5,336 nt of DNA from Phycisphaerae bacterium (GTDB lineage Bacteria; Planctomycetota; Phycisphaerae; Phycisphaerales; SM1A02), in contig NYVS01000046.1 of NCBI GenBank assembly GCA_002684755.1, positions 2,169 to 7,504 of the forward strand, in the 5' to 3' direction. The notes below the pieces were generated by a model. The model did no database searches, was not told where the DNA came from, and was given only the letters and a program-made list of their open reading frames with translations. Positions 1-5,150 of the stretch are shown one piece after another. A program made the translations under genes and the position numbers. Within the stretch, counting starts at the first letter, position 1. Each line of letters begins with the position of its first letter.

Positions 1-4
1 CCGG

Positions 5-24
5 GGGGCGAAATCGCCCCTTTT
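5..24 (+). terminator. Intrinsic terminator of an upstream unit
   Basis: A 6-bp all-GC stem (GGGGCG, 5-10, with CGCCCC, 15-20) closes a four-base AAAT loop and is followed directly by TTTT. This is the standard rho-independent layout for transcription on the plus strand. It should end a unit lying left of the window and separate it from the recA promoter, which starts seven bases later. The T-run is short, so termination may be partial. Confidence 0.7.
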
Positions 25-30
25 CGGACC

Positions 31-59
31 TTGACAGCGGGCCGTGGGCGATCGACACT
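31..59 (+). promoter_or_regulatory. Probable recA promoter (sigma70 type)
   Basis: A perfect -35 hexamer TTGACA (31-36) is followed after 17 bases by GACACT (54-59). GACACT keeps the A at position 2 and the T at position 6 of a -10 box but is otherwise weak. Transcription would start near 66, at the left edge of the first GTTC-N7-GTTC box. A weak -10 with a strong -35 suits a regulated promoter. No other convincing promoter is seen before recA. The start site is predicted, not measured. Confidence 0.55.
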
Positions 60-67
60 GCTTTTCC

Positions 68-82
68 GAACAAAGACCGAAC
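68..82 (-). promoter_or_regulatory. Candidate LexA box 1 (GTTC-N7-GTTC, minus strand)
   Basis: GAAC (68-71), seven bases, then GAAC (79-82). Read on the minus strand this is GTTC-N7-GTTC, the direct-repeat LexA operator described for Alphaproteobacteria. It lies just downstream of the predicted -10 and covers the predicted transcription start, a position where a bound repressor would block initiation. The protein that binds it is inferred; no lexA gene is in the window. Confidence 0.55.
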
Positions 83-107
83 GGATTTCGGGCCTTTTTC
101 CGATGAT

Positions 108-122
108 GTTCGGTCAGCGTTC
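108..122 (+). promoter_or_regulatory. Candidate LexA box 2 (GTTC-N7-GTTC, plus strand)
   Basis: GTTC (108-111), GGTCAGC, then GTTC (119-122). The 17-base core GTTCGGTCAGCGTTCGG (108-124) is the inverted partner of box 1 at 14 of 17 positions. The two boxes are 40 bases apart centre to centre, roughly four helical turns, so two repressor dimers would lie on about the same face of the helix. Box 2 falls about 40-55 bases into the predicted transcript and could act as an auxiliary operator. Confidence 0.5.
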
Positions 123-124
123 GG

Positions 125-593
125 TATCCGGCGTGTGTCTCACCCGACAACGACCCATGACGATCTCCCACTCATCCTCCTCCTCCGCCGATTCGAGCCG
201 TGCCCCAATCGTCTCGAGTATCCGGAACACCCCGGTCACCCAGGGGATCGATCGGTGTCCGAGGCATCGGTCGGGAGAAACCGCCGATTGCGGAGACGGC
301 CATGGGACGGGTTCTACGATTCGAACTCGTGTGCGATACACGCCGGTCGGAAGCCCTCGGATCACATCGATCTCCAAGCGGGGCGCAAGATCACCATGAG
401 CCACCTGATCCAGAGGAGGTCGGGCGGATTCAACGAGGAACCGGACGACGACGACGAGCCTGATTCCGGCCCACCGGCCCCCGACGCCAACGACCCACCA
501 TCCCGAATTTCAAATCCCCGAACACCTCGACTCGACAAGAACCCGGATCACCGACGGATCGATCCGACCATCGCAACGGAAGGCGAAGACAAC
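125..593 (+). other. Long recA leader without a convincing gene
   Basis: About 470 bases separate the second GTTC box from recA. No reading frame here has both a good ribosome site and a recognisable product. The recA frame is open without a stop back to at least 135, and an in-frame ATG at 396 could extend RecA by 66 residues rich in Asp, Pro and Arg. A plus-strand frame beginning with ATG at 157 ends in the ATGA that contains the 396 start. A 96-codon minus-strand frame (114-404) also exists but has mixed codon use and overlaps box 2. If the upstream promoter is the only one, this is a transcribed leader of roughly 500 bases. Confidence 0.5.
578..583 (+). promoter_or_regulatory. Ribosome binding site choosing the recA start
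   Basis: GGAAGG lies ten bases before ATG 594. It is the best purine-rich match ahead of any of the in-frame RecA starts (396, 594, 726), so it favours 594. A stronger AGGAGGT occurs at 414-420 but no ATG, GTG or TTG follows it at a usable distance. Confidence 0.5.
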
Positions 594-1757
<1,164 letters not shown>

Positions 1758-1763
1758 CGGAAG

Positions 1764-1794
1764 GGGCGTCCGGGCCGGTCTGGCCGACACGCCC
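1764..1794 (+). other. Hairpin just after the recA stop
   Basis: GGGCGT (1764-1769) pairs with ACGCCC (1789-1794), and inside it GGCC (1773-1776) pairs with GGCC (1782-1785) around a five-base loop. It begins seven bases after the stop codon and has no T-run, so it is more likely an mRNA 3' structure than the terminator, which lies further downstream. Confidence 0.35.
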
Positions 1795-1818
1795 GACCGA
1801 TTTCCGGGCCGATCCGAT

Positions 1819-1833
1819 GTCAACCGAGTTGAC
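1819..1833. repeat. Short perfect dyad GTCAAC-CGA-GTTGAC
   Basis: Six-base arms (1819-1824 and 1828-1833) are separated by three bases, between the recA stop and the recA terminator. It could be a small hairpin or a protein site. Nothing around it decides which. Confidence 0.3.
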
Positions 1834-1850
1834 CCGAATCAATCTGAATC

Positions 1851-1885
1851 ACACCCCTCCGTGCGGACGCACGGGGGGGTGTTTT
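1851..1885 (+). terminator. recA intrinsic terminator
   Basis: A 14-bp stem (1851-1864 with 1869-1882) has a single T-G wobble, a four-base GGAC loop, and TTTT at 1882-1885. It lies 94 bases past the recA stop and before the tRNA promoter, so recA is a single-gene unit. On the minus strand the hairpin is preceded by few useful T residues, so it reads best in the plus direction. Confidence 0.85.
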
Positions 1886-1980
1886 CTCGGGGGCGTTCGC
1901 CGGGGCTCCGGCAGGGTGTCCGGCGGGGACGTGCGGAGCGTTTCGGCGATGTTGCCGCATCGATCCGACGGTTCGAGATG

Positions 1981-2008
1981 TTGACGCCTTCGGGGAATCG
2001 GATACCCT
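1981..2008 (+). promoter_or_regulatory. Likely promoter of tRNA-Leu
   Basis: TTGACG (1981-1986), a 16-base spacer, then TACCCT (2003-2008), which keeps the T, A and final T of a -10 box. A start near 2015 would give a leader of about 30 bases before the mature tRNA. That leader contains a small hairpin, CCTCG-TCAC-CGAGG (2017-2030), which would be removed in 5' processing. Confidence 0.5.
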
Positions 2009-2045
2009 GCGACGTTCCTCGTCACCGAGGATTCCATCAAGCCCT

Positions 2046-2131
2046 GCGGGTGTGGCGGAATTGGCAGACGCGCTAGATTCAGGTTCTAGTGGGAGTAAAA
2101 TCCCGTGGAGGTTCGAGCCCTCTCACCCGCA
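2046..2131 (+). tRNA. tRNA-Leu, anticodon CAG
   Basis: This 86-base class II tRNA reads CUG leucine codons. The acceptor stem pairs GCGGGTG (2046-2052) with CACCCGC (2124-2130), with discriminator A at 2131. The anticodon stem CTAGA/TCTAG (2073-2077, 2085-2089) encloses loop TTCAGGT with CAG at 2080-2082. A long variable arm follows, with GGGA pairing to TCCC around GTAAAA, as expected for Leu. The T stem GGAGG/CCTCT (2107-2111, 2119-2123) closes the loop TTCGAGC. The 3' CCA is not encoded (ATTC follows), so CCA must be added after transcription. All arms fold, so it looks functional. Confidence 0.96.
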
Positions 2132-2139
2132 TTCACGAG

Positions 2140-2173
2140 AACGCCCCGTCCACCATCGGACGGGGCGTTGTTC
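2140..2173 (+). terminator. Terminator hairpin after tRNA-Leu
   Basis: A perfect 12-bp stem AACGCCCCGTCC (2140-2151) with GGACGGGGCGTT (2158-2169) has a six-base loop and is followed by the moderately T-rich GTTC. It starts nine bases after the tRNA. It also lies 55 bases past the stop of the converging minus-strand gene and could end that transcript too, though its minus-strand tail (CTCGTG) has few T residues. Confidence 0.7.
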
Positions 2174-2227
2174 ATCGGGCTGTTCGCGTTCGGGAGGGGG
2201 GTCGTGACCGGAGGCGACACGGCCGGA

Positions 2228-2891: not shown

Positions 2892-5150
2892 TCACTCCCC
2901 GGGAATCGGGCTCGCCACCGGTGCCGTGCAGAAGTCGTCGATGTCGGTGATTCGAATCATCGCGGCGTCCGCCGCTCGGCGGATCTGGACGGTCGGTCCG
3001 AGTTCGAGTTCCCCGAGCAGGCGTCCGGCTTCCGCCGGCCGGTCGCGGACGTCTCCCAGTCGGCGTTGAAACGTGGAGCGGAGTTCGGCCTGCGGGGAGG
3101 TCGTGGGGAAGACGTCCAGGGAGCGATACGGAAACAGGTCGTCGAGGTCGGCGAACGGCTCGGTCACGGACTCCCGAGGCGGTCGAGGCGACTCCGTCGG
3201 GATGATGGCTCGATCGTCGGCGACGGCGAAGATCGAATAGAGCCGTCCCGGGGGGAGCGCGGCGAGCGCCGTCGCGGATGCCTGCGCCGCATCGCTCGGC
3301 AGGTCCCCGAGCCTTGCGGTGACGAATCGGGACGCATCCGTTCGCGTCGCGGTCGATGCGTCGAGCCCGTCGAGCCTGGGGAGCTTCGCCGCCGCGTCCG
3401 CGATCAGCATGCGAAGAACGGGATCGATCCGCATCGCCCGGGCATCGCGGGTCGCGAGCAGGCTGGCGATGTCCTCGATGATCGCGGCGGCGAGCCGGAC
3501 CCGCGCGACACCGGGATCACGGATCAGGTGCGCGGCGAGCGACAGGGTGACCGCGATCTCGTTCGCGGCGAGATAGCGTTCATTCTCCGGCGTGATGCCG
3601 TCTTCGTCGGAGGCGGGCATCGTGACGGCGCGTCGGAGGCGACCGGCGGCATCCGCGAGGTAGCCGCGAGCGGCGGAACGAATCGCCGCGAGGCATTCGT
3701 CGGCGTCGGATTGCGGGCCGCGTGGCTCATCGAAGTCGGCTTCCGAGATCGCCGCGGCGTCGAGTCCCAGCGTCAGCCATCTGGAGGCCACCGGGGCGTA
3801 GGCGTTCCTCCAGATCACCTCGGGTGATTCCGCGGCTCCCGGCGCCCCGGACTCGTGTTCGATGAATGGCGTTCCGGCGAGAAGATCGAGGCCCGCGCGC
3901 TGTGCATCTCCCGGAAGACCGAGCATGCCCCGGCCGATCTGCTGCCAGAGAATCGCGGCGTTTCGGATTCCATCGGGTGGGATCCGGCCGGAGGCGACCG
4001 CGTCGAGGCCGCGAATGCGATCGTTCAGGATCCGTTCGACGCGGAGCCTCGCCCGGGCGAGCAAAGTCATCGAGGGAAGCAGCGTCTTGATGATCTCAGG
4101 AACCTCCGGCGAGTCGAGTTCCGCCTCGATCCCGGCGAGCGTCTCGATTCCACGATCCCGATCCGGATCGTCGAACGCGAGTTGGATCCGATCGAACATG
4201 TCGTTCATCGTGTCTCGGACGCCATCACCGCCATCCGGAAGTTCGGTGATCGACTCGATGAACCGGTCCCCGAACGCCGAGCGGTAGACCGCAAGCACGT
4301 CCTCCGACGGCGGTGCTCCATCCTTGCCGAGGATCGCCTCGAGCGACTGGGTGAACAGGAGACGTTCCCCGGCGACCGAGTCGCCGAAGTGAAAGGGATC
4401 CCGCGCCTCGCGAAGCGTGGAGAGACTCTCCAGGATCGTCGCGGCGGTGGCGGCATCGATCATCCCGTTCGCGATCGCCAGTTCCATGGTCTGGTCGGAA
4501 CGCTGGTACATCGCCGCTCCGACCAGCGAGCCGATGGCGGTGCCGTCCTGGCCGGCGTGGGCCGAGATCTCGTTCAGGGTGCCGAGCCATTCGACGACGC
4601 CGCCCACGTCGCCCGAGATGGTCGCGCGACGAGCGAGATTCGAGCTGACCCGGCAGATCTCCCGCATCGGGGCGAGATGGGGGAGCAGGAGCATGAACCC
4701 CTCGTCGAGGTCGATTCCCGCATCGAAGCGCGGCGTTCCGCGCAGCTCACGAATGAGCGGTGCGATCGATTCGGCCTTTTCGAGGTAGGCGAGGGCCGCG
4801 CCCCGGGGTGGTTCAAGCGGGCCCTGCTGCCATGCCTCGATCGCGGCGTGTTCGTCCGGGGTGAAGAAGCCCGGCGATCGCGCGGCGGTCGGATCGTCCC
4901 AGCCCGGCTGGAGTCGATCGAAGAGCCTCGTCCAGGCGTCGTAGGCGTTCGCGTCCTGGGCGGTGGCCGTCGGCACCGCGATCGATGCGACGGCGATCAG
5001 CAACGCGACGGTCGTTCGGGCCATCGCGAATCGAAGGGTTCGGGCAGGCGAGTCGAGCATCCCGGGGGTCTCCGGCGAGGGCGCTGGATCGAGCAGCTTC
5101 AGGATCGCCACCGGACCCGCACCTCGCATCAGTTCTCGTTCGATTCGCAT
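2892..5150 (-). CDS. Large exported helical protein, function unknown
   Basis: The product has 752 residues from ATG 5150. A signal sequence is clear at about 43-65: positively charged ARTLRFAMAR, the hydrophobic core VALLIAVASIAV, then PTATA before QDANA, a typical AxA cleavage site. There is no lipobox and no later membrane segment, so a periplasmic or secreted product is likely. The mature part is rich in Ala, Leu, Arg, Asp and Glu and looks helical throughout. A block containing LLPHLAPMREICR and GQDGTAIGSLVGAAMYQ resembles helical-repeat secreted proteins common in Planctomycetes (from memory, untested). No catalytic motif is recognised. Start choice: ATG 5150 has GGAG seven bases upstream and sits 31 bases after the predicted transcription start; ATG 5060 (722 residues, GGAG nine bases away) or ATG 5024 (710 residues, no ribosome site) give a more ordinary signal peptide. 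The TTG at 5213 lies inside the -35 and is rejected. Confidence 0.85.
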   Translation of the reverse strand: MRIERELMRGAGPVAILKLLDPAPSPETPGMLDSPARTLRFAMARTTVALLIAVASIAVPTATAQDANAYDAWTRLFDRLQPGWDDPTAARSPGFFTPDEHAAIEAWQQGPLEPPRGAALAYLEKAESIAPLIRELRGTPRFDAGIDLDEGFMLLLPHLAPMREICRVSSNLARRATISGDVGGVVEWLGTLNEISAHAGQDGTAIGSLVGAAMYQRSDQTMELAIANGMIDAATAATILESLSTLREARDPFHFGDSVAGERLLFTQSLEAILGKDGAPPSEDVLAVYRSAFGDRFIESITELPDGGDGVRDTMNDMFDRIQLAFDDPDRDRGIETLAGIEAELDSPEVPEIIKTLLPSMTLLARARLRVERILNDRIRGLDAVASGRIPPDGIRNAAILWQQIGRGMLGLPGDAQRAGLDLLAGTPFIEHESGAPGAAESPEVIWRNAYAPVASRWLTLGLDAAAISEADFDEPRGPQSDADECLAAIRSAARGYLADAAGRLRRAVTMPASDEDGITPENERYLAANEIAVTLSLAAHLIRDPGVARVRLAAAIIEDIASLLATRDARAMRIDPVLRMLIADAAAKLPRLDGLDASTATRTDASRFVTARLGDLPSDAAQASATALAALPPGRLYSIFAVADDRAIIPTESPRPPRESVTEPFADLDDLFPYRSLDVFPTTSPQAELRSTFQRRLGDVRDRPAEAGRLLGELELGPTVQIRRAADAAMIRITDIDDFCTAPVASPIPGE

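Follow-up and report, generated by a model that had tools for sequence, protein, structure and literature searches.

Two facing GTTC direct repeats at a planctomycete recA promoter are predicted LexA operators with counterparts at SOS operons of related genomes

The recA promoter studied here carries two copies of GTTC-N7-GTTC, the form given for the alphaproteobacterial LexA box in PMC3323433 and PMC8565304, raising the question whether these boxes are SOS operators and what their alphaproteobacterial look means in a genome that looked planctomycete in a preliminary description. For the window, by which we mean the whole stretch of DNA analysed (5,336 nucleotides), the planctomycete origin is supported: its RecA is nearest to Planctomycetota loci, some named Phycisphaerae, and the order of G006, from which 201 genomes were searched for RecA, includes in that draw the Phycisphaerae genomes G003 and G004. 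RecA was found in 189 of these genomes (best four G118, G058, G103 and G067), and the four closest proteins are 87-89% identical to that of the window in the genome search and 86-87% by BLAST. One contig in the comparison (L001) is labelled Limnohabitans, yet carries a planctomycete-like recA and promoter, which probably reflects bin contamination. The window also holds a tRNA-Leu (CAG) gene at 2045-2132, downstream of recA.

The features of the recA locus are the following:
31..36, plus strand: -35 element TTGACA, read from the sequence; TTGAC[A/G] in all five aligned promoters
54..59, plus strand: weak -10 element GACACT, read from the sequence, with a 17-bp spacer to the -35
68..82, minus strand: predicted LexA operator box 1, GTTCGGTCTTTGTTC, exact GTTC-N7-GTTC, spanning the inferred transcription start
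103..399, plus strand: possible leader ORF of 98 codons, its first codons overlapping box 2, open in all five aligned sequences
108..122, plus strand: predicted LexA operator box 2, GTTCGGTCAGCGTTC, exact GTTC-N7-GTTC, at about +42 to +56
396..593, plus strand: possible N-terminal extension in frame with recA, its length a multiple of three in all five sequences despite indels
594..1757, plus strand: recA, with matches to PF00154 (E 2.5e-132) and PF21096; 594 is the assigned start

Both boxes are thus exact and lie upstream of recA in opposite orientation, facing each other with their centres (75 and 115) 40 bp apart, just as first described. The position of TTGACA-N17-GACACT places the predicted transcription start at about 66-67, so that the claim of a box covering the recA start site holds for box 1. 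A consensus promoter scan of window positions 1-2200 reported no promoter, TTGACA-N17-GACACT included, perhaps because the -10 element is weak; among the aligned relatives this element reads GACACT in L093 and GATTCT in L094-L096. Chance is an unlikely source of such a close pair, as simulating the window with a first-order Markov model gave two boxes 12-60 bp apart in 8 of 20,000 runs. Shuffled windows gave an expectation of 0.25 matches, with three or more in 2 of 200 shuffles; the window's third exact match (4023-4037) lies within a 773-aa ORF and is outside the five best matrix scores of the window. The top score, 25.7, belongs to box 1, and box 2 reached 14.6, both sites having been part of the training set of that matrix. 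With a matrix trained on lexA sites instead, box 1 scored 14.4 and box 2 was not picked as its partner; in L093 and L096 this matrix found no partner either.

The promoter was aligned with those of four relatives whose RecA is 86-87% identical (L093-L096, five sequences in all), and here the expectation that the boxes are conserved in close relatives was borne out unevenly. Box 2 is identical in all four, within a 31-bp block that is invariant across the five sequences, and the leader beyond this block diverges. Box 1 is exact only in L093, and reads AAAC-N7-TAAC with the spacing retained in L094-L096. The 40-bp offset between the boxes is kept in all four relatives although the sequence between them diverges. 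Since the lexA-trained matrix skips box 2, this box is less certain than box 1, and its assignment draws on the exact repeat, the conservation and the fixed distance.

The overlap with the leader ORF offers a different account of this conservation, in which box 2 is kept as the start of a leader peptide (MMFGQRSVS) and the LexA site is box 1 only. The ATGATG and the ORF are indeed kept in all five sequences, and the lexA-trained matrix passes over box 2 in the window. However, no codon position varies within the 31-bp block while the remaining ORF diverges, and box 2 repeats the operator half-site exactly, in direct orientation and with operator spacing, at a constant distance of 40 bp from box 1; we regard this account as improbable, if the best placed of the alternatives. 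The leader ORF and extension frames showed no third-position excess of changes among the five sequences. Both frames are open in all five, with length differences of whole codons, and the stop of the leader ORF overlaps an ATG (ATGA) in all five, that ATG being in frame with recA. RecA may therefore carry a fast-evolving acidic N-terminal extension that is translated by coupling.

Whether LexA is available to bind such boxes was addressed in relatives. Among 32 related genomes, 29, including the four closest, contain a TIGR00498 match above the curated cut-off, while G185, G001 and G002, for which completeness is not given, had no LexA match in this search; the protein at L131 has both the PF01726 (HTH) and PF00717 (S24) domains. 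A matrix trained on 11 recA sites only was then scored against 33 lexA upstream regions of up to 1500 bp (29 and 4 from two LexA searches). It reached 10 or more in 26 of them and in none of the 33 coding controls, with a mean of 0.97 and a maximum of 5 for 100 column-permuted matrices, and in a shuffle test p was about 0.05 or less in 28 of the 33 regions. Of the seven regions below 10, that of L129 is truncated where its contig ends, its probable operator being on another contig (L299), and in L151 the low score comes from a site beyond the scanned stretch (L300). The best lexA sites are mostly 400-1100 bp upstream of lexA, so their link to the gene assumes an operon. Outside the training set, 20 of 23 recA regions scored at least 10 (coding control 0/23; permuted matrices mean 0.67, maximum 3), the exceptions being L004, L102 and L103; recA promoters were read for 37 sequences, a smaller set than the 189 genomes with RecA. 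The period of the repeat can also be seen by simple counting, since in all 70 regions together, those used for training among them, 39 of 241 CCGAAC have an AAC 11 bp ahead; the median for other offsets is 4, and the coding control lacks a peak of this kind.

In relatives, 37 sites, some of them second lexA boxes or weaker recA sites, yield the consensus CKAACA-N5-CGAACA, in which a C is also conserved ahead of the second half. The core of the motif as first described, GTTC-N7-GTTC, is therefore exact, but its extent has to be revised to this longer form. Across 30 genomes, the pattern AACATNNNCCGAACR gave 38 matches in 22 genomes versus 3 for the reversed control, with lexA-linked matches in the four closest genomes, and the strict pattern CKAACANNNNCCGAACA gave 32 matches in 16 genomes versus 7, with none in the four closest. 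Placed by coordinates and HMMs, the 32 strict matches fall at recA (7), lexA (10), imuA (9), umuDC (2; G136 and G073) and a pcrA/uvrD-type helicase gene (1; G028), with three elsewhere (G130:C10:225118, G027:C3:22458 and G037:C142:2975). Because both patterns were drawn only from recA and lexA sites already seen, the 17 recA and lexA matches are partly circular, and the 12 at imuA, umuDC and the helicase gene are independent. The ImuA and ImuB models match weakly, mostly under the cut-off; of the nine matches placed at imuA, six have dnaE2 on the same contig, one is supported by weak matches to both models, and two (G181 and G163) are assigned by synteny only, through a neighbouring sensor-kinase gene and weak similarity. 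Upstream stretches of dnaE2, none of which was in the training set, were scanned in 14 of the 17 genomes over the cut-off (G118, G103 and G181 were left out): eight scored at least 18 and the other six at most 7.5, and for two of these six, G154 and G163, a site was found outside the stretch (in G163 by synteny only). The motif thus occurs at other DNA-repair promoters of the relatives, namely at lexA, imuA-imuB-dnaE2, umuDC and a pcrA/uvrD helicase gene.

A looser pattern, GAACN5CCGAAC, was poorly specific in the four closest genomes (82 matches versus 39 for the reversed control), and in 17 stretches read most of its matches were inside long ORFs. Separately, an operator-like site is kept in three of four close relatives (L213 at 1736, L214 at 1823, L215 at 1718) upstream of a gene whose protein product is uncharacterised. 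Seven relatives of this protein were found, of which the two with an organism name are Phycisphaerae or Phycisphaerales; the gene is a possible new SOS gene.

Taken from these comparisons of sequence, it is very probable that both boxes are LexA/SOS operators at recA, conserved in relatives, box 1 being the firmer assignment of the two. The proposed SOS circuit finds its support in the relatives, through the presence of lexA, the motif at SOS operons and the conservation of the recA boxes.

How far these operators are of an alphaproteobacterial type was examined at control loci. At recA promoters, the exact GTTC-N7-GTTC is present in 19 of 23 alphaproteobacterial loci versus none of 31 other controls. 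These 54 controls come from 80 loci, of which the six closest planctomycete ones (L001-L005 and L029) were analysed apart and 20 were left out, including the 'Pseudomonadota' contig L010, which carries an exact box. At lexA the figures are 8 of 8 versus 0 of 16. The alphaproteobacterial LexA box hence shares the GTTC half-site, the direct orientation, the period of 11 and the occurrence at recA and lexA, whereas in the planctomycete sites the second GAAC has conserved flanks, CC ahead of it and A behind it, and the spacer is a different one. It would be conceivable that the operator arrived together with a lexA gene transferred from Alphaproteobacteria, given the identical half-site and spacing; a paper on Acidobacterium reportedly claims, in its title, a precedent for such a transfer. 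In two trees, however, the alphaproteobacterial LexAs form a branch of their own (100/99; 100/100) and the planctomycete ones another (100/92; 99/93), so that the LexA of the planctomycete relatives is a separate lineage outside the alphaproteobacterial clade. The recognition helices differ as well, being typically SKVT[VA]FEHV in the relatives and SKSG[IV]HRLI in Alphaproteobacteria, and in 16 aligned rows the HTH turn before this helix is one residue shorter in nine planctomycete rows (e.g., L131) than in the seven others. With operator spacers that differ too, a separate lineage with a different helix makes simple transfer from Alphaproteobacteria very unlikely. The suggestion of an Alphaproteobacteria-type motif consequently stands for the shape of the operator, its half-site and spacing, and falls for an alphaproteobacterial origin.

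A regulator other than LexA might bind the repeat and control recA together with repair operons, and the three genomes without a LexA match do carry recA sites (L001, L002 and L122). Yet the completeness of these three genomes is not given, lexA has the motif in 26 of its own 33 upstream regions, and most placed matches are classic LexA targets, which leaves little room for this explanation. Equally slim is the chance of an RNA element, in which the arms GACCGAAC (75-82) and GTTCGGTC (108-115), fully complementary in the window, would pair as a 5'-leader hairpin controlling recA after initiation, since by alignment the first-arm changes in L094-L096 break the pairing at no fewer than two of eight positions although box 2 is unchanged there, and the lexA boxes are tandem rather than facing in 11 of 33 regions.

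The arrangement of the boxes can be followed across promoters. Found with the recA-trained matrix, the tandem lexA boxes of these 11 regions are 34 bp apart, and with the lexA-trained matrix tandem boxes 47 or 48 bp apart were seen in other recA promoters, 9 of 37; in the clade of the window the recA boxes face each other at 40 bp. Spacings held constant in this way would be compatible with a pair of repressor dimers that act in phase. Under the LexA reading, and assuming that the organism of the window has the LexA of its relatives and that this protein binds, LexA at box 1 would cover the transcription start and block recA transcription, and a second LexA at box 2, in the opposite orientation and 40 bp further downstream, would add to the repression. 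The pair could act by cooperative binding, as a roadblock or by looping. Upon DNA damage, RecA filaments would trigger LexA self-cleavage, the sites would become empty and recA expression would rise.

Other known LexA systems are more distant. The Gram-positive box GAAC-N4-GTTC has the same GAAC half-site as the planctomycete one but is inverted, not direct; it was found at recA in 12 of the 31 non-alphaproteobacterial control loci, these 12 being clostridial or actinobacterial, and in the tree Gram-positive and planctomycete LexAs are on opposite sides. The Balneolaeota LexA repeat, TTACACATATTTTWTACATA, tested by gel shift according to PMC7739468, is likewise direct, with ACATA at period 11 by our own reading of the consensus, but its half-site differs from the planctomycete one, and Balneolaeota LexA is outside the sampling of our trees. 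For Planctomycetes, PMC3108266 states that their LexA does not recognise the E. coli motif, and our literature search retrieved no planctomycete LexA operator motif or regulon. The operator shape itself is already known from Alphaproteobacteria.

The shared shape may extend further. A degenerate repeat lies upstream of lexA in all three of the outgroup planctomycetes where LexA was matched (AS06, PLA3 and ANT-40), and in AS06 also upstream of a DNA polymerase IV-like gene; a fourth, G227, had no LexA match. CKAACAN4CCRAA showed no genome-wide enrichment in six outgroup genomes (14 matches versus 43 in the control), three of its matches being upstream of lexA, and the recA upstream regions of four outgroup planctomycetes score poorly, the best (10.3) being 509 bp upstream in PLA3. 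Before repeats were searched for in these groups, the first tree had already grouped its single Gemmatimonadetes LexA, along with a second LexA of Bacillota, on the side of the alphaproteobacterial and planctomycete proteins (99/92). Upstream of Gemmatimonadota lexA, CCGAA is repeated at period 11 in all 30 loci (L312, L380-L408), compared with at most five regions for any 5-mer at periods 9, 10, 12 or 13, and the TTCGG-type repeats often come as two boxes. Upstream of Gemmatimonadota recA, CGAA-N7-CGAA is present in 29 of 30 loci (L409-L438; Markov expectation 0.87, maximum 6) and the exact 5-mer repeat in 10 of 30, several of the Gemmatimonadota loci being near-identical relatives. TTTAGG at period 11, read by eye, stands upstream of the second Bacillota LexA (L328), which is on the direct-repeat side of the tree.

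An unrooted 48-row LexA tree, in which many phyla are missing and which samples 14 of 33 Phycisphaerae-group and 11 of 30 Gemmatimonadota LexAs, puts 35 alphaproteobacterial, planctomycete and Gemmatimonadota proteins on one side of a branch (98/90) and 11 from Firmicutes, Actinobacteria and Gammaproteobacteria on the other, with the Sumerlaeota and second Bacillota LexAs outside this count; the 35 are labelled by group, and not all have a clear box of their own. The planctomycete half-site TGTTCGG contains both the GTTC of Alphaproteobacteria and the TTCGG of Gemmatimonadota. We give an even chance to the reading that period-11 direct repeats mark one LexA lineage, comprising Alphaproteobacteria (GTTC), Planctomycetota (TGTTCGG), Gemmatimonadota (TTCGG) and possibly the second Bacillota LexA (TTTAGG), in which the half-site drifts and the 11-bp spacing stays. 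If so, the alphaproteobacterial box would not be a private invention.

In conclusion, an SOS operator for Planctomycetota would allow the prediction of SOS regulons in this phylum. PMC7739468 describes several instances of direct-repeat recognition by LexA as independently evolved; should the shared lineage prove true, it would bring a simple order to LexA motifs described in this way, and it would provide a testable rule, with the 11-bp direct-repeat geometry held constant while the half-site changes.
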